23,009 nucleotides of DNA from a virus. The DNA is taken from positions 1 through 23,009 of IMG/VR virus record IMGVR_UViG_3300030085_003204. One strand, 5' to 3'. The notes under the pieces are model-generated. The model saw only the letters and a program-made list of their open reading frames with translations. It did no database searches and was not told the origin of the DNA. Below are positions 1 through 7,900 of the stretch, in pieces (positions within the stretch are counted from its first letter, which is position 1; each line of letters starts with the position of its first letter). The translations under genes and the position numbers were made by a program.

Positions 1-592
1 CGTTCTCACGCCAGCCAATGTTTGCAACGTGCTGAGATGATAGTGAGGACTTAAAATCCTCAAAGGAGCCACGCTGATTGATTTCACTGTGTGGCTTCTG
101 AACAGAACGTGCGTTCCATGTCTCAGCAGCACGGCGCTGGGCAGCATCAGTCGGGAAGAAGGAACGCTCCACGACCATGATCTGGAACATCTGGTCCTTA
201 GCTGTTGCTGCGCCCTGACGGACTGCCTCTCGGCTGTGCTGACCATCATAGTGACCACACCCCTGATCGTTGCAGGAGAAGGAGATGGTTCCGGTCTCGT
301 TGTCAACACTGAGACTGCCATCATCAATGACGATACACATACCTCCGTTGTAAACAGCAAACCCAGGATCGTTTTCTAGGGTGTGCAGAATAGCCTTGAC
401 CCGTGGTGATTCTGGGTTGACTGCACGAGGATTGGTGCCGTTGGGGATGTTGAAAAGCTGGCTATCTTCCGTGATGTGAATATAAGCAGTGCCTGACTTC
501 ATGAACTTACCATCCTTCTTGATGGTCATCTGGCTCCATGGCTGATCATCAGCCGCACCCATGTATAGGTCTAGTGTAAATAAGTTGTTCAT
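1..592 (-). CDS. AIPR/DGQHR-like protein, N-terminal 197 residues (C-terminus outside window)
   Basis: An open frame runs from ATG at 592 to the window edge, so the C-terminus is missing. An AAAGGAG ribosome site lies 8 bases before the ATG. The visible residues read like the core of AIPR (abortive infection phage resistance) and DndB/DGQHR proteins: a NPRAVNPESPRVKAIL stretch, TLENDPGFAVYNGG (compare the family's 'T-L-x-N-P-x-x-F-x-x-x-N-N-G' region), and GHYDGQHSREAV, which matches the DGQHR/NGxQT loop. What is seen is motif order and spacing. The family link is my recognition and no search was run. AIPR and DndB proteins occur in defence and DNA-modification loci, so in a phage this could be a counter-defence or DNA-modification regulator, which is inference. 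It has its own strong sigma70-type promoter and a structured leader, separate from the gp32-like gene upstream, which suggests early expression. Its GC content is visibly higher than that of the tail genes. Confidence 0.6.
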   Translation of the reverse strand, partial: MNNLFTLDLYMGAADDQPWSQMTIKKDGKFMKSGTAYIHITEDSQLFNIPNGTNPRAVNPESPRVKAILHTLENDPGFAVYNGGMCIVIDDGSLSVDNETGTISFSCNDQGCGHYDGQHSREAVRQGAATAKDQMFQIMVVERSFFPTDAAQRRAAETWNARSVQKPHSEINQRGSFEDFKSSLSSQHVANIGWREN

Positions 593-625
593 AATATACT
601 CCTTTATAATGATATTAATTGAACA

Positions 626-657
626 AATCCCCTCTGTGTTCTCAATAACACGGGATT
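626..657 (-). promoter_or_regulatory. Stem-loop in the leader of the AIPR-like gene
   Basis: AATCCC then GTGTT, a six-base loop, AACAC, a four-base bulge and GGGATT form an 11-bp interrupted stem in the 5' leader, about 30 bases before the ATG. It is not followed by a T-run, so it is not a terminator. A second weak hairpin (TCTCC/GGAGA) lies at 666-680. A role in translation or mRNA stability is inference. Confidence 0.4.
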
Positions 658-721
658 CTTGCAATTCTCCCTGAAGGAGAGTCGATGTTCTTTTCAGTCC
701 TCAATCGCCTCGGACATTCTT

Positions 722-750
722 AATATAGCAGGTTGGCTACCATGTGTCAA
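722..750 (-). promoter_or_regulatory. Sigma70-type promoter for the AIPR-like gene
   Basis: On the minus strand TTGACA (750-745) is followed by exactly 17 bases and TATATT (727-722). Transcription would start near 715, giving a leader of roughly 120 bases before the ATG at 592. It sits directly behind the terminator of the gp32-like gene, so the AIPR-like gene is an independent unit. Confidence 0.8.
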
Positions 751-760
751 GTATTTTTTT

Positions 761-791
761 AAAAAAGTTGGCAGACTTTAGCCGGTCTGCC
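761..791 (-). terminator. Rho-independent terminator after the gp32-like gene
   Basis: On the minus strand GGCAGAC, an eight-base loop and GTCTGCC form a 7-bp stem followed by AAC and six T residues. It begins 28 bases after the stop of the gp32-like gene. Confidence 0.8.
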
Positions 792-818
792 AGCGGCGGC
801 TGGAGCGGTACGCTTTTA

Positions 819-1586
819 CTAGCCAGCCATCAACTCGTCAAAAGCCTTATCCACGCTTGACTTCTTGTTGGTGTTGTACTGAGTGGTTTCGCGAGACCGT
901 GACTCAGCAGAATTGTCACCTGATAGCATTGCGTCTAGGATAGCGCTAATCTCTTCTGGTGAGTGACGAGTGAACAGTGCATCAATATCCGGCATATTCT
1001 GTAGCAGACCGGGGATTGCGTCCTTATCTGTCAGAAGCGGACTGGTGTTCCGTCGCATCTTCATGTTTGTCTTCGGGTATGCACCGGGAGTAGTAGGCTT
1101 GGTGTATGTGATAGTAATATCAGTGCCGCCTTCAGGGTCGGTGATGTCGCCGTACTCTGGATCGAGAATATACCCGAGAAGAAGTTCATAAGCCTGCTTG
1201 CCGTAGCCATAAACCTTGACTCCCTCGTTTTCCATCCCGCGAACAATGACAGGCGAGAAGTAGCGAGTGCGAACAAAAAGCGACTTTGCAAGCTTCTTGG
1301 TTTCTTCATCGTTAGTCTCAGTGCCGTCACGCCATAGCTGTGAAGCAAACTCACAGATTGGGCAGTGTTCACCAAAGTTACGCTTGGGGCACATCACACC
1401 ACCGCGATGGCCTTCAATATTGTAGTGAAAGAAAATCTCCTTTAGTGGATCTCCATCTGCTGCTGGGACAATACGAACGTCTGTATCTCCCTCATCTGGC
1501 TTAAACCATACACTGGTCTTATCGCTCTTTCCTTCTCCACGAAGTGCGGCGAGCTTCCTCCGCATAAGTTCCATGTTGATTCCCAT
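819..1586 (-). CDS. gp32: Single-stranded DNA-binding protein, T4 gp32-like
   Basis: A 255-residue protein. The frame is open up to 1742, but ATG at 1586 is preceded by AAGGAGAAC and gives an N-terminus like gp32 (M, basic helix, LAALRGEGK), and two promoters fill the longer frame, so I use 1586. The hallmark is a zinc site: His54, Cys66, Cys75 and Cys78 (CPKRNFGEHCPIC), close to the T4 gp32 spacing of H-12-C-9-C-2-C. Around it are the OB-fold stretches DVRIVPA, the FVRTRYFSPVIVR strand and VKVYGYGKQAYELL, all matching gp32. In that family the protein coats single-stranded DNA during replication, recombination and repair and binds the polymerase. The C-terminal tail is only mildly acidic (VDKAFDELMAG). 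Length is a little under T4 gp32 (301). It follows the tubulin-like gene, has tandem promoters, and ends in its own terminator, as expected of an abundant protein. Confidence 0.9.
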   Translation of the reverse strand: MGINMELMRRKLAALRGEGKSDKTSVWFKPDEGDTDVRIVPAADGDPLKEIFFHYNIEGHRGGVMCPKRNFGEHCPICEFASQLWRDGTETNDEETKKLAKSLFVRTRYFSPVIVRGMENEGVKVYGYGKQAYELLLGYILDPEYGDITDPEGGTDITITYTKPTTPGAYPKTNMKMRRNTSPLLTDKDAIPGLLQNMPDIDALFTRHSPEEISAILDAMLSGDNSAESRSRETTQYNTNKKSSVDKAFDELMAG

Positions 1587-1637
1587 AATGTTCTCCTTGT
1601 GTTGGGCTATAGTATGACGAGCGTTCCTCGCCATCTT

Positions 1638-1666
1638 AAGATAACACGCTCTCCAAGTCTTGTCAA
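1638..1666 (-). promoter_or_regulatory. Proximal sigma70-type promoter for gp32-like gene
   Basis: TTGACA (1666-1661), 17 bases, TATCTT (1643-1638), then AAGATGG on the minus strand. The start would lie near 1631, about 45 bases before the ATG at 1586. The -10 flank resembles that of the promoter at 722-750 (TATATTAAGAATG). Confidence 0.75.
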
Positions 1667-1713
1667 GCGTATTTGTTTTGGGTGATGTTTGGAGCGTTCC
1701 CTTGCTCATCTTT

Positions 1714-1742
1714 AATGTAACGTGATCAGCGTTGGCTGTCAA
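1714..1742 (-). promoter_or_regulatory. Distal sigma70-type promoter for gp32-like gene
   Basis: TTGACA (1742-1737), 17 bases, TACATT (1719-1714), then AAAGATG on the minus strand. The -35 box lies within the last codons of the tubulin-like gene, whose stop is at 1726-1728, and the -10 box lies beyond it. Confidence 0.65.
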
Positions 1743-2589
1743 GTATATTTTGTCCTTGAATATAATTTGTGTGCGCTACACAAAACCCAAAATCGCTTTC
1801 ATAAGGTGATTCATATACCGCATAAGTCACATTCTTAAACGCGTTTCGGGGTTTGCTTTTAAGACTTTGGACTACCTCTGAATGAAGCCTTCCATCCGTC
1901 TCTAGACGCTTTTCCGCTATACATAAATAGTATGCTACATCACGATCTTGCTCTAAATTATAATACCATTGTTCAGAAAGTTTGTCTACCGAGACCACCC
2001 CAACAGAACGTATTTTCTGTACCTCTGATGGCTTTGTTAGGTTACCTACGAGTGGCTCAGTATGGTCGAAGACATTTAGATAATGAACAGCATAGTAGAT
2101 GTTTTTGTTGATCATATCAAAATATTTTTTTATTGGGATCTCGCCTATTGTCTTCTCAATTGCTGGGTTTGACAAGATTGTAAAACTCTTGAAAAGCCCA
2201 GATCTTGCATACTGCTGCAATATACCAAATATTGCCCTTTCTTGCAGCCTAACATCACCTATTAACAGGTCTACGTCGGGCTTAATGTAAAAGATCTCTA
2301 TCTCTCTGTATCTTATCTGCTGTAAAATTGCAAGCGTGTAGTTTGCTGAGAACGATGACCCGCAAACAAACACTTGAACCCTATCTTGCACTGCTTGTAA
2401 TGTCTTGTATGATGAAAGCTTTGGGGCTTTCTCCTCACAATCTTCTGCTTTCTCTACTCTCGGTAAATCTCTAGTATATTTTGTGTTGTCTCTTCCCTCT
2501 GAGAACAAAAAGCAATTATATTCTTTGTGATCTCCAAACAACGACACCACATTACACCCAGCATCGCCTATGCCTATCAGCGATATCAT
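1726..2589 (-). CDS. Protein with a possible degenerate FtsZ/tubulin-like fold
   Basis: A 287-residue protein whose ATG overlaps the polymerase stop (ATGA). A GGGAG ribosome site lies within the end of the polymerase gene. Seen: it opens with MISLIGIGDAGCNVV, very like the first strand and T1 loop of FtsZ (IGVGGAGxN). A second strand, VQVFVCGSSFSANYTLAIL (71-89), falls where FtsZ has its GGGTGSG loop and following helix. Next come a strand ending IKPD (102-105), a helical stretch, FTILSNPAIEKTIG (like FtsZ IPN...L), and IPIKKYFDMINKNIYYAV, like the FtsZ H6 helix. The glycine-rich GTP loop is not conserved and I see no GxNxDxxD catalytic loop. It may therefore bind nucleotide poorly or not at all. 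Phage tubulins (PhuZ, TubZ) move or centre DNA. Any such role here is inference. A different Rossmann-type protein is the main alternative. Confidence 0.5.
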   Translation of the reverse strand: MISLIGIGDAGCNVVSLFGDHKEYNCFLFSEGRDNTKYTRDLPRVEKAEDCEEKAPKLSSYKTLQAVQDRVQVFVCGSSFSANYTLAILQQIRYREIEIFYIKPDVDLLIGDVRLQERAIFGILQQYARSGLFKSFTILSNPAIEKTIGEIPIKKYFDMINKNIYYAVHYLNVFDHTEPLVGNLTKPSEVQKIRSVGVVSVDKLSEQWYYNLEQDRDVAYYLCIAEKRLETDGRLHSEVVQSLKSKPRNAFKNVTYAVYESPYESDFGFCVAHTNYIQGQNILDSQR

Positions 2590-3776
2590 AACTTTAACTC
2601 CCTCAACTCTCCGTAATTCTTGCCTGCCTTAACATTTGCTCTGAACGAACCAAGTTTATTGTTTTGGAATACCTCCTTTAGTTCTGGTATAAGATATCTA
2701 TCATCCTCGTGGATGTCAAGTACAATTTCATCGTGTACAATAAAAGCAACGTGAGACTGTGTATCCTCAAGGATCTTATCAAGTTCAACTGCACGATCGA
2801 TTGTAAGATCGGCTGTCGTGCTCTGGATAATATAATTGAAAGCTTTACGCTGATCGACCTTAATCTTTCTTTTAAATGGAGTCTCAACACGATCCCCATA
2901 AAAGTAGTCTCCGATCACCCGTTCTCTACTGTAAACAGAATCGTTAAGAGATTTATCGTCATTATTATAAAATGACGCGAAGAATCTTACTTTAGCTTCC
3001 TCACGATCTATCGGATGATCACCATATAGGTGCTTCATATTCCACTGGTGAATATCTTCATCTGGCTGTTCCACACCAGAGAGGGCCAAGAAAGTTCTAA
3101 CTTCTGCGCCATTATAATCAAATGAAACAAGCCAATCGTTTGTAGGTTTAACCACAGAGCGAAACTTTGACTTCATTGTTAAAATAGGATTACTTGTTCT
3201 CTTGGTTGTGAGACGCCCTGTGACGGTTCCAAAAAGATTGTAGTCTACGTAGTGCGACTTCTTTTTTACAAGCATCCTAATGTCCTCTCGGTCGCTTGTA
3301 GAGGTCATCAGCCGACGACAACCATCAATGTTAATATTCAATTTTTGGTAACTGATCTTGTGGATTAGCTTGTAAGCACGGTCAAGGTGATCATAGTTCT
3401 GTGGTTTCCTGTGGTTGTTGAATACGTGCTCTGTAATTTTGTTACGCATCTCACAAAATTCTAGCAAAAAATCGCTTGGAACAAGATCAAAAAAACAATT
3501 CTGATGCAGATCAATCTTTGCAATTTCAAAAGATTTTAGATAAGCTTTAAAAGTTTTTTGCAATTCTGTAAAGTCTTGTTGTAAGTGCTCAGGGCAAACA
3601 TCTTGAAGTCTCTGCCCATTACATCGTAACCAAGCGTATTCAATGTTTTGGTCTTTGAGTGACCCTGTGTATTTCCAAGTCTTTGAAAGTCCTGCTGGTA
3701 TACTGTCGAAATGTAACTTGCCATCAACATACACACCAACACACTCTGACTTATCGTCAAGGGTTTGAAAAATCAT
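2586..3776 (-). CDS. Family A DNA polymerase, polymerase domain only
   Basis: A 396-residue protein with the full family A signature: LFGTVTGRLTT (181-191) at the thumb-palm junction; motif A SFDYNGAEVRT with Asp220; an O-helix with Arg258, Lys262, Phe266 and Tyr270 in exact R-x3-K-x3-F-x3-Y spacing; YIIQSTTADL (315-324); and motif C IVHDE with Asp349. Both metal-binding aspartates are present, so it should be active. Family members with a 3'-5' exonuclease domain are much longer (about 600-900 residues). Here only about 140 residues precede the conserved core, with no exonuclease motif I can see. Proofreading would have to come from another protein or be absent. T4 uses an unrelated family B polymerase. 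The ATG overlaps the preceding gene's stop by one base (TGATG) with GAGG just upstream, and a strong promoter lies inside that gene. The next gene follows by an ATGA overlap. Confidence 0.9.
   Translation of the reverse strand: MIFQTLDDKSECVGVYVDGKLHFDSIPAGLSKTWKYTGSLKDQNIEYAWLRCNGQRLQDVCPEHLQQDFTELQKTFKAYLKSFEIAKIDLHQNCFFDLVPSDFLLEFCEMRNKITEHVFNNHRKPQNYDHLDRAYKLIHKISYQKLNINIDGCRRLMTSTSDREDIRMLVKKKSHYVDYNLFGTVTGRLTTKRTSNPILTMKSKFRSVVKPTNDWLVSFDYNGAEVRTFLALSGVEQPDEDIHQWNMKHLYGDHPIDREEAKVRFFASFYNNDDKSLNDSVYSRERVIGDYFYGDRVETPFKRKIKVDQRKAFNYIIQSTTADLTIDRAVELDKILEDTQSHVAFIVHDEIVLDIHEDDRYLIPELKEVFQNNKLGSFRANVKAGKNYGELRELKL
2691..2719 (-). promoter_or_regulatory. Sigma70-type promoter inside the polymerase gene
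   Basis: TTGACA (2719-2714), 17 bases, TATCTT (2696-2691) on the minus strand, lying in the codons just after motif C of the polymerase. It could drive the tubulin-like gene, whose start is about 100 bases on. Because it is inside coding sequence it could be coincidence, but its -35, spacing and -10 equal those of the proximal gp32 promoter. Confidence 0.55.
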
Positions 3777-4963
3777 CAGTCCTCACGAAGTTTTTTATTT
3801 GTTTCATTAATATAGCTCAGTGAGCCTACGCTGTCAAATGGTTGGGCTATAATTTTTACAAATCTGTTCATAGAGCGCACCAGACCAAACGATCTATAGA
3901 GTTGCATACAATCGTTTAAAAGTTTTATTTTTTCACCATTTGAAAGTTTTTTATCTGTCTCTAACAATCTTATTTCATAGTAAAATTTCAACATTTGGGC
4001 CTCACTAATTTCCTTATCAAAAAGCTGAACGTTAACTTTTGGTATTTCTACATATCTGGTTCTTTGAACACCGTCACAATCATAAGGTTCTGCAAATGTA
4101 GTAGCAGTTTGATTATATAAATTTAATATATAAAACTTTAATTTATTAAAAAAGAATATTTCTGTTTCTTCGTAAGCACTAGCCAAAATATTGTCAGTGC
4201 TAATTAAGCCATATTGTACAGAATATTCAAGTGCTTCAGAAGATCCTATATCTGCCACTATTCTCCAAGGTATATTTTTATCTACCATAAAACCATATGA
4301 TCTGCAAGCATTTAAATAAAATTCCCAATTAGGACTGTTGTAAAATTGTTCGATTTTATTCTGGTCATCAAAATAATCAGAGTCTGCTATCTCCAAACAT
4401 AATCCCGAAGAAAAAATTGGACAAAATCTGCTCTTGACAAATCCAGCAAATGTAATAGGATATAACTTGAGAGTTTGAGAGAGAAGACTTAAAATCTCTT
4501 CTAGAAAAAAACTTAAATTATCAAATTTTCTGCCTTTTAATTGATTTGATAAAGCATTGAATTGCGTTTGTAAATAAGAAACATGCAAAGCTACTGGATC
4601 TTGATACGCTTTATAAACTTTTAGGGTGCTTAAAAATGGATCATCTGCTCGAATTGTACCTATTGTTGAACACTTAAGAAATTGTGTATTTAATCTATTA
4701 AACATATCAACGACAAAATTTAATGCTTGTGGTGGTGATGCTTGAGGATCAATAGCTCCTAAGCCCTTTAAATTTTCAGAAGTTGAATTAAGATATATTG
4801 TTCTAAAATCTCTTCTAACTCTCCCATACAGAAATTTTTCACCAAAGTTAAAATCAACTAAATTTTTATATTCCTCGTTTTCTGAGTCTGTGAGATAGAT
4901 TAATTTTTTATCTAGTGTTTGCTCAACTGTGTTGTCTTCCTTGCCAACGTATAAAAATGACAT
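3776..4963 (-). CDS. Virion-type protein of unknown function, probably baseplate
   Basis: A 395-residue protein I cannot assign to a named family. It starts 12 bases after the 1088-residue protein with an AGAGG ribosome site. It has no signal peptide or clear membrane segment. The composition is rich in Phe, Tyr, Asn and Leu, with a compact aromatic section FYNSPNWEFYLNACRSYGFM followed by IPWRIVADIGS, a stretch I associate with conserved uncharacterised structural proteins of T4-like environmental phages. The C-terminal third looks helical (LLETDKKLSNGEKIKLL). Its position at the end of the baseplate run argues for a virion or baseplate role, which is inference. Its AT-rich base use matches the gene upstream. 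The polymerase promoter lies within its last 30 codons. Confidence 0.75.
   Translation of the reverse strand: MSFLYVGKEDNTVEQTLDKKLIYLTDSENEEYKNLVDFNFGEKFLYGRVRRDFRTIYLNSTSENLKGLGAIDPQASPPQALNFVVDMFNRLNTQFLKCSTIGTIRADDPFLSTLKVYKAYQDPVALHVSYLQTQFNALSNQLKGRKFDNLSFFLEEILSLLSQTLKLYPITFAGFVKSRFCPIFSSGLCLEIADSDYFDDQNKIEQFYNSPNWEFYLNACRSYGFMVDKNIPWRIVADIGSSEALEYSVQYGLISTDNILASAYEETEIFFFNKLKFYILNLYNQTATTFAEPYDCDGVQRTRYVEIPKVNVQLFDKEISEAQMLKFYYEIRLLETDKKLSNGEKIKLLNDCMQLYRSFGLVRSMNRFVKIIAQPFDSVGSLSYINETNKKLRED
3809..3837 (-). promoter_or_regulatory. Sigma70-type promoter for the DNA polymerase
   Basis: TTGACA (3837-3832), 17 bases, TATATT (3814-3809), then AATGAAA on the minus strand. The start would lie near 3802, about 26 bases before the polymerase ATG at 3776. 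It lies in the 3' end of the preceding virion gene and would separate polymerase expression from the late baseplate genes. Confidence 0.75.
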
Positions 4964-4974
4964 TATAATAACCT

Positions 4975-7900
4975 CTAGTAAATTGACTTACACTTTTTAG
5001 GTGAAGTATTGTTGTCCTGATTTTCTTTATTATCCGCATCTAAGCCTTGAACCCATTTGGCCTTTAAAGTGGATTTCATTGTACCGGGAGCAATTTCATG
5101 TTCTGAACCAATAATCATATGATAACCACCAATGCCTAAATCAGTTAAATCAAATTGTTTTTTATCGTATTTGCCTAAATCTGGTGAGAACCCACGGGGC
5201 TCTACAAAAATATAAGTGCCAGGAAAAGCATGAACATTCAAAAAGCTATCAATATTTACATCGTAAATTTCACGAAGCTGCGATAAGCCTTGGTAGCCCT
5301 CTTTTTCAAATCTAACTTCTTTTAATCCGGGTGAATCAGTTTTTGAAAGGCTGATGTTTTTAACTATACCGACATCTCTACCTAAAATATAATGATATAT
5401 TCCGCCATCTTCATCATCTTTCTTGTTTCCAGTCATCATATCGGAGGGAGTAGTTCTGCCAGCATAAAAAATGAAGAAATGGTTTTCTCGGTCTGCACCA
5501 AGATTGGCGCTAGCAAGAGTTCTATGTCCCGATATATTTAAAACCGGACGGGATGCTTTATCAATGTTTAGTCTTCTTGATGTTTTATTCATTTGTCTTG
5601 TAATATCATCTTGTTTATCTCTTTCTTCGTTATTTTTAATAAATTGCCTATACGATGTTATAGTAGATTGAAAAACTCTAGTTTTTTGTTTTATGTTAAA
5701 ATCATAACATGAATCATCATTTAAAAATGTTTTAACAAGATTATTCATTAAGTTAGTAATAAATTGTGTTAGTGTATATTCAGCGCTATCTTTAGCTAGC
5801 ATTTTTTCTGTTAACCATTCGTTAAAATAAGACAAAGAGATTGGTAAATCTGCGAAAGAAATATTTGCTGACTGATTAGTATCGGCATGATTTATAAGTT
5901 TCATAGGCCCAAGAACAATTCTCATTTTTTTTAATTGTTCTATTGAGCTTTTTATTTTTTTCCTTTCTTCCGATAGCAATGTTTGATTGAGAGCAACGGA
6001 TGAACCTCCTGCGAGACTAAAAGAGTCTGATATTGTTAAAGATTCAAAATTCATTTGCATTTCTTTTAATATTAGATCTATCAAATCCCCAAGGAAGAAA
6101 AATGCTATTGTTTTATTTTGAGGACTTACTGGTCTAGCCTCTTCTGAAGATGGAAATATACTTTCGGCCAACTTCTTGCCCGCAGGTCCTGCCGTAAGGT
6201 TGGAGATTAGGACCGCTGGGCTCGTGACAGCGGCGAGAACGCCAAGAGCCCCATATTCATCGTAATAACTTTTAGCAGCGTCAACGATTTGTTCTCCTGC
6301 GTCTGCAATAGAATCAAGTATCCCCTCCGATTCTTCTTCAGTTTTTTCGGGCTCTAACTCTTTCCAAGCTTCTGCCATGTCCGCTGCTACATTTGCTGCT
6401 GCTGTTGAATTTTTAGAAACTTTAGAAGTGATATCTCCTAATTTGAAAAATGGACCTTTTTCGGCAATTGTATTAAATTCTTCTACAGTTAGATTTAAAT
6501 AATATAATATGCCAGATTCTATCATTTTCGATGTTAAAAATTTTAAAGCCTCTAATTTATCTGACTTTATTTTTTCTGATTCTTGTTGTTTAAATTCTGA
6601 TATTTTCTCTGCATTGTCGCCGCCACAATCTTTGGCCAATGTTTTGAACGCTAAGTCTCGTTCAATTAATCTTTTGTTAATTGATGTATCAGAAAAAATA
6701 TTCATTCTTGGTTTATCAAAATACTCCTCAATATAAGCATAATAATCTACTGTAAATTCTACAGCGCCTGTTTCATCAAAATTAAACTGATGTGTTACCG
6801 GTGTTAAATTCAGTGTTACAAAATTATCATTTACAGCCCCTTGTATATCTGAGTAGTTTGAGATTCTTTCGGTTCTTGGTGGCAAAGATAATCCGATTAA
6901 AGCTTTGATTCTAAAATCAAGCTCAGGATCCCCGGTCTTTTCCTTAACTGCTTTTCCTGTTTTTAACGCAAGATCAATATATCTAAGTCCGCTTGACCCG
7001 CGAGGTCTTAACAACTCTGAAAAGTTATTTGCTTTAATAGACAGCTTAGCTTTGATACTTTTTTTAACTGAAAACGGGTTACTACCATCATATGCAAATG
7101 TAAAATTTTTGATATTTGCGCCAAAGCCCCGCCTGTTTCTATTTGAGTATATTTCTGAAACATCATCCTTAGAGGCAAAAGTATCAAATGGAAATTCTAG
7201 TTCTACTTCTTTGCCATCATCGTTTGGCGCAACCTTGAAAAGTCTTATCATTGGCTGTAAATGGGCTAGCTGTTTATTTTCAGCTTCAAAAAAGTTGCGG
7301 AACGAAGGGCTTTGCGTTAATTTATTTATAAATCCAAATGGTTCGCCCTCAACTGGTAACACTGCATTATACTCGTATCCGTTAAAAAATGGAAGTTTTT
7401 TATTTGGAAAACTTGCAATATGAAGACCTGCAAGTTGAAAAATTGTGGCCAACATGATACACTGTTCTTTAAGGCTTTTTTCATTTTTACTAGCCTCGGC
7501 AACCGCCTCTTCCCGTGCGGCAGCCTCTTCTTCTATTGCTTTAAGTTTGGCTGCCGCAGCTTCGGCTGCTTCTTTGCTTTTTGAAGCTTCTCGAATTTCT
7601 TGCATGGTCAAGCCGGAGTCTGGACCCGTTTCAAGTGCGACGAGCGCTTTAATCCCTAAGTCATAAAGTTCTTCTATTTCTTCACCGAGTTTGCCTGGAT
7701 CACAACTTAAATCGGCTAACTTGAAAAAATTGCTTCTTTTTAAGGCGTCCACCAGATCGCTTTTGAACTCTTCTGCGCTGGTCCCGCTTTCAGGTTTATC
7801 TAAATAAATTTCATAAAGGCCCAAGTCGATGCTGCGTTGACCGATGTTCACGATGTGAGACCCCTCTTTACGCTCGGGGTTGAGCCACACCGGGTTTATA

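Follow-up and report, generated by a model that had tools for sequence, protein, structure and literature searches.

Introduction

Phage-encoded members of the tubulin superfamily are known as PhuZ in the nucleus-forming jumbo phages, as TubZ in a few partition systems, and as scattered FtsZ-like proteins such as that of phage G. In the superfamily, the T7 loop and helix H8 of one subunit normally activate GTP hydrolysis in the next. The known phage tubulins position DNA (PMC4244570), PhuZ and TubZ possess an H11 helix and a tail (PMC3678025), and two FtsZ/tubulin types have been counted in a comparison of jumbo phages (PMC7824862). A review-type paper on FtsZ/tubulin evolution, when its text was searched, gave no mention of phages (PMC9871819). 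Here, we describe a predicted tubulin/FtsZ-fold protein of 287 amino acids (aa) that is encoded at positions 1726..2589 of a 23 kb virus record of IMG/VR, IMGVR_UViG_3300030085_003204. The whole 23,009 nucleotide (nt) stretch is called the window below, and all window features given here are on the minus strand. The gene lies between genes for a family A DNA polymerase (polA) and a gp32-type single-strand DNA-binding protein (SSB). An initial annotation, made from the sequence without database searches, had proposed that it encodes a possible degenerate tubulin/FtsZ-fold protein, non-polymerising or nucleotide-free. The family appears to be undescribed, as neither an account of it nor one of a tubulin gene in a phage polA-gp32 operon was found in the literature searched, which included few subscription papers and preprints.

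Predicted fold and structural matches

The open reading frame (ORF) starts with ATG, and its assignment draws on the family alignment, a structural model and structural matches. When AlphaFold2 was run without templates on A7, a family alignment of 133 non-redundant members that contains no FtsZ or tubulin, the mean predicted local distance difference test score (pLDDT) of the window protein was 94.2 and the predicted template modelling score (pTM) was 0.92, with all five models above 93. A model built from 12 close homologues alone had a pLDDT of 33 and was discarded. The A7 model consists of two domains, a GTP-binding Rossmann-like domain and a mixed-sheet activation domain, with the central helix H7. 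Its helices and strands follow the order of the tubulin/FtsZ core up to S10, save that there is no helix at the H8 place. The motifs on which the initial annotation had based an FtsZ-like order of elements (IGIGDAGCNVV at residues 5-15, CGSSFSAN at 76-83, IKPD at 102-105 and SNPAIE at 140-145) were all located, and in the predicted structure they do lie in tubulin/FtsZ order.

The best 50 matches returned by Foldseek from the Protein Data Bank (PDB) were all to FtsZ or TubZ, with E values of about 1e-12 to 1e-10 and template modelling (TM) scores, normalised to the query, of 0.63-0.71. With VIA-align over model residues 1-287, CetZ gave a Z score of 22.8 (258 residues, 3.2 Å), followed by Aquifex FtsZ at 21.5, TubZ at 21.4 and tubulins at about 20.8. 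These matches span 258-278 residues, and identity to CetZ, FtsZ, TubZ and tubulin is 9-15%. Among viral structure models, the best matches were a phage FtsZ (TM 0.70), phage tubulins and PhuZ, and the Foldseek TM score to Noxifer PhuZ was 0.53. The structure prediction and database search that had been proposed as a check on the initial annotation therefore returned top matches to the tubulin superfamily alone, over the full length, and no different fold.

Profile comparison pointed in the same direction. HHalign of A7 against a mixed set of bacterial FtsZ, phage G gp138 and a second phage FtsZ (see below) scored 47.9 (P 1.1e-5) and was colinear over residues 3-166. Among the controls, 30 column-shuffled versions of A7 scored at most 21.8, reversed A7 scored 17.4, and unrelated gp32, UvsX and PolA profiles scored 11.8-20.9. 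Scores were lower against bacterial FtsZ alone (27.0) and against the phage set alone (31.9), and against the second phage FtsZ by itself the match was weak, with a probability of 3.4%, probably because there is little diversity in that alignment.

Alternatively, the window protein might be a Rossmann-fold NAD(P)-binding protein of the ordinary kind that resembles FtsZ by accident. The Pfam model TrkA_N does match 44 of the 133 family members (best 4.2e-5), though not the window protein, with other NAD-binding models matching fewer. The one such match with a range given covers the N-terminal GxGxxG stretch. Set against this are the confident full-length model, tubulin-superfamily matches with Z scores of 20-23 over 258-278 residues, and a profile similarity to FtsZ that extends to H7. 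The best 50 structural matches also contain nothing outside the tubulin superfamily, an absence from a hit list that would not suffice by itself. We have rejected this explanation, which is extremely improbable given the high confidence with which a full-length tubulin fold is predicted. Judged from the model, it is very probable that the window protein has a full-length tubulin/FtsZ fold, and the proposal of a diverged protein of this fold beside a phage DNA polymerase stands.

Nucleotide-site residues and the T7/H8 region

The T1 loop of the window protein (residues 6-13, GIGDAGCN, 2551..2574) aligns with the FtsZ T1 loop GVGGGGNN and has the family form GLGxAGCN. Among the 133 members, G6 is conserved in 98%, G8 in 100%, G11 in 97% and C12 in 93%. 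The T4 phosphate loop (residues 76-84, CGSSFSANY, 2338..2364), aligned to the G-box region of FtsZ, is more altered. In the family, GxGx[IV]SG replaces GGGTGSG, and G.G..SG is found in 66/133. The tubulin signature GGGTG[ST]G is absent from T4 of the window protein, and GSSFSAN occupies this place in each of the 12 close homologues of the initial alignment, the window protein included. In a more family-central homologue, L092:3392-4228, the loop reads GSGAISG.

In the HHalign register, Asn141 (2167..2169) falls at the Asn of the FtsZ IPN motif, and at tubulin N206, which recognises guanine. Residues 157-161 of H7 (2107..2121), an aromatic residue followed by three others and an Asn, correspond to Phe183 and Asp187 of the FtsZ F-xxx-D motif and to Y224 and N228 in tubulin. 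Asn141 and Asn161 are each conserved in 132 of the 133 A7 members, and residue 157 is Y in 83, F in 18, W in 14 and H in 11, so that 115/133 have an aromatic Y, F or W. The suggestion that the protein might be nucleotide-free is not borne out, as the residues aligned to guanine contacts are nearly invariant, though the phosphate loop is eroded in the clade of the window protein. Eight further residues (Y24, L86, Q125, Y127, R129, S130, H169 and Y263) are invariant or nearly so in A7, and lie, by alignment, outside the known nucleotide site; they may mark a family-specific binding surface.

H7 spans residues 153-174 in the model and S7 spans 193-199. The loop between them at the T7/H8 place (residues 175-192, 2014..2067) contains no helix according to DSSP, in a block with a pLDDT of about 93. 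No column of this loop is acidic in more than 66% of the family, the highest being at residues 178 and 189, and conservation in the T7 region is on the low side (1.89 bits vs a mean of 2.29). A T7 motif of the form GxxNxDxx[DE] is absent from the window protein, as the initial annotation had observed for GxNxDxxD. The chain ends about 13 residues beyond its last strand (267-274) without a further helix, and thus has no H11 or tail. Read from the aligned residues, guanine recognition appears to have been retained. Phosphate binding appears to have changed, and the means of activating the neighbouring subunit's GTPase to have been lost or replaced. The protein is rather likely to bind a guanine nucleotide.

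These features bear on the alternative that the protein polymerises in the manner of PhuZ or TubZ, forming filaments that position or cluster replicating phage DNA and that are stable or hydrolyse GTP in an unusual way. The complete fold, with both GTPase and activation domains, would suit such a filament, as would a gene that adjoins polA and gp32, the DNA-positioning role of the known phage tubulins (PMC4244570) and the acidic residue at position 189 in 66% of the family. However, there is no T7 GxNxDxxD motif and no H8 in the model, the T7 region is less conserved, the C-terminal helix and tail of PhuZ and TubZ are absent from the model, and no tubC-like iteron array was found in window positions 1-5200. 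On balance, we consider a filament of this type unlikely.

Family and selection

No significant match to the window protein was found in Pfam, including PF00091 (Tubulin), or in PHROGs, PDB sequences or 50,697 phage records; the profile-library search that had been suggested alongside structure prediction was therefore negative. An hmmsearch of the PDB with a seven-row profile gave chance matches only, and when three family members were used as tblastn queries no relative was found among the 50,697 phage records. Across the family, PF00091 matches 6/133 members weakly (best 0.0095). Relatives were instead found in viral contigs, where iterative scans returned first 23 and 39 loci and then, via bridging sequences, a very large family. 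Two alignment-based scans yielded at least 567 and at least 581 confirmed relatives. The carriers are a sizeable group of uncultured bacterial viruses, most of them aquatic, in a widespread T4-like phage lineage seen here from metagenomes alone.

Close homologues share 74-95% identity with the window protein, while most other A7 members share about 23-35%. The dN/dS ratio (non-synonymous to synonymous substitution rates) of the window gene against its close relatives is 0.03-0.05 where it could be estimated, and the gene is therefore strongly constrained. We conclude that the gene is real and under strong purifying selection. A gene in decay is ruled out by these values and so, of the word "degenerate" used in the initial annotation, strong divergence stands while decay does not.

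A conserved replication operon

The family A DNA polymerase gene, polA (396 aa, 2586..3776; PF00476 1.7e-14, phrog_17 2.7e-23), lies directly upstream of the tubulin-like gene, and the two overlap by 4 nt (ATGA, 2586-2589), which include the ATG of the tubulin-like gene and the stop codon of polA. Downstream is the gp32-type gene (819..1586; PF08804 2.7e-16, phrog_1192 3.6e-26), whose ORF opens at 1742 and whose probable ATG start is at 1586. The placement between polymerase and gp32, originally proposed without database support, is thus borne out by both neighbours.

This arrangement was surveyed in about 180 loci, a few of which repeat one contig. Directly upstream of the tubulin-like gene, polA was found in 159 of 170 testable loci; gp32 was downstream in 172/173, and uvsX further downstream in all 127 loci where it could be assessed. 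A 4-base overlap between the polA stop and the tubulin-like start is present in 70 loci, and in 66 of them it is ATGA. The gene is thus no isolated curiosity: across a widespread viral lineage, it is conserved as the X of a polA-X-gp32-uvsX operon. The conserved phage operon also rules out a host-derived FtsZ acquired through assembly error.

One of the 11 apparent polA exceptions, L071, does have polA, and a 641 aa gene (L071:1466-3391) has been inserted between it and the tubulin-like gene. The product of the insert is predicted to be secreted and contains a VWA-like DxSGS stretch as well as repeated DxDxDG-like motifs; motifs of this kind hint at a Myxococcota/Deltaproteobacteria-like source. 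In a subgroup of at least 22 of the surveyed loci, polA and the tubulin-like gene are separated by 297-373 nt, and this gap of about 300 nt perhaps holds a small extra gene. The product of the window polA is compact, and neither Pfam nor PHROGs detects a 3'-5' exonuclease domain in this protein; no search was aimed at a separately encoded exonuclease. Directly upstream of polA, the window encodes a conserved 395 aa protein (3776..4963) that has no Pfam or PHROG match. ORFs of 368-477 aa occupy a similar place upstream of polA in loci L041, L056 and L040.

A second, canonical FtsZ-like protein

A second FtsZ-like protein, of 364-378 aa and with the motif GGGGGTGS, is encoded elsewhere in the genome in a 127 kb contig of a near relative of the window phage and in several other long contigs. 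At least 125 viral-contig stretches encode it, and it was noted in 80 loci (L208-L287). In L137 (1309-2442, plus strand) the neighbour reads as an SbcC/gp46-type gene, and in L205 (1027-2121, minus strand) as a sigma-factor-like gene. Among the loci listed, these proteins are about 85-100% identical, except for that of L205 at 64-65%. They carry GGGGGTGSS/GSA together with a DxxD-type T7, most score above the Pfam Tubulin cut-off and the remainder just below it, and the closest solved chains are CetZ and FtsZ.

Both genes co-occur in at least eight contigs. With two tubulin-superfamily genes in several contigs, these phages may possess their own cytoskeleton. In eight long contigs (147-204 kb) that contain the tubulin-like gene, no canonical FtsZ-like gene was detected, and the two genes are therefore separable. 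This limits a further explanation, in which the window protein caps or regulates another FtsZ, either that of the host, with a block to division during infection, or the canonical one encoded by the phages. A subunit of FtsZ fold that has no T7/H8 might plausibly act as a filament cap, and the co-occurrence provides a candidate partner. However, the eight contigs indicate that this partner is not obligate, the operon links the tubulin-like gene to replication and not to genes for host takeover, and mixed interfaces are doubtful given how little the protein resembles FtsZ. We regard a cap or regulator of FtsZ as quite improbable.

Proposed role

The best explanation overall, which we put forward tentatively, is that the window protein serves the phage replisome as a scaffold or accessory with a tubulin fold, which binds a guanine nucleotide and hydrolyses it poorly or not at all. 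According to this proposal, a divergent member of the tubulin/FtsZ superfamily became a fixed component of the replication operon in a widespread T4-like phage lineage. It would probably still bind a guanine nucleotide, and with no T7/H8 element there would be no neighbour-activated GTP hydrolysis, so that the protein would not be a treadmilling cytomotive filament. It would be produced together with the DNA polymerase, probably through translational coupling, and with gp32, and might then, stabilised by the nucleotide, serve as a scaffold or accessory subunit that organises or tethers the replisome by binding the polymerase or gp32.

The replisome role itself is possible but somewhat less likely than not, and is put forward because T7/H8 has been lost under strong selection and because of the operon position, with its probable coupling to polA. 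A more specific version, in which the tubulin fold has been turned into a dedicated viral replisome subunit, coupled to polA, bound to guanine nucleotide without self-activated hydrolysis, and acting on polymerase and SSB in a clamp-like, tethering or regulatory capacity, is rather doubtful.

Several observations weigh against a nucleotide-bound, non-hydrolysing replisome subunit. The eroded phosphate loop may mean that nucleotide binding in the clade of the window protein is weaker or lost. Residue 189, a possible stand-in for the catalytic acid, has an acidic side chain in roughly two thirds of family members, and hydrolysis would be possible in some of them. The residue mapping comes from a profile alignment, not from superposed coordinates, and operon position is indirect support for function. 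In the related cultured phages immuto (Flavobacterium phage) and Mel-JY01 (Microcystis phage), which have polA and gp32, the slot does not contain the tubulin-like gene, and the gene is therefore not needed for a replisome of this kind in general. Other genes are found in the slot in phages with related gp32 or PolA (Mel-JY01, immuto, Goe26, LysYB1 and LR756508).

If the proposed replisome role is correct, the known uses of the tubulin fold would be widened. In the more specific version, the protein would, to our knowledge, be the first of its superfamily with a part in DNA synthesis proper, as opposed to DNA movement or cell division. If the protein instead polymerises without T7/H8, it would represent a new kind of tubulin filament. 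The family was missed by Pfam, by PHROGs and by tblastn against phage records.

Comparison with known systems

The window family resembles CetZ, FtsZ, TubZ and tubulin in its complete predicted fold, the order of its elements, its T1 loop and its Asn residues at the guanine-recognising positions. It differs from them in its altered T4, in having no T7 motif and no H8, in its short length (about 275-290 aa) and in the absence of a C-terminal tail. With the TubZ partition systems of plasmids and phage c-st, it shares a tubulin fold on a mobile element and a fold match to the TubZ proteins of B. cereus and B. thuringiensis. However, the neighbours of the window gene are replisome genes and H11 is absent. 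TubZ systems have a TubR-type adaptor and tubC iterons close to the gene; an iteron-like array was not found within window positions 1-5200, and a TubR, at which no search was aimed, could be encoded elsewhere. Misato, a divergent eukaryotic relative of tubulin (PMC9871819, PMC4510148), is a superfamily member with a new role and provides a general analogy, not a direct comparison; unlike the window protein, it is eukaryotic and has a role in a chaperone complex. PhuZ and the phiKZ TubZ of nucleus-forming jumbo phages are likewise phage-encoded proteins with a tubulin fold, and the window family shares with them a possible role near replicating phage DNA, but it lacks the T7 motif and has no H11 or acidic knuckle, and its gene sits in a T4-like polA-gp32-uvsX operon. 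The tubulin fold was already known in phages, and the window family represents a separate and very divergent branch of it inside a T4-like replication operon.
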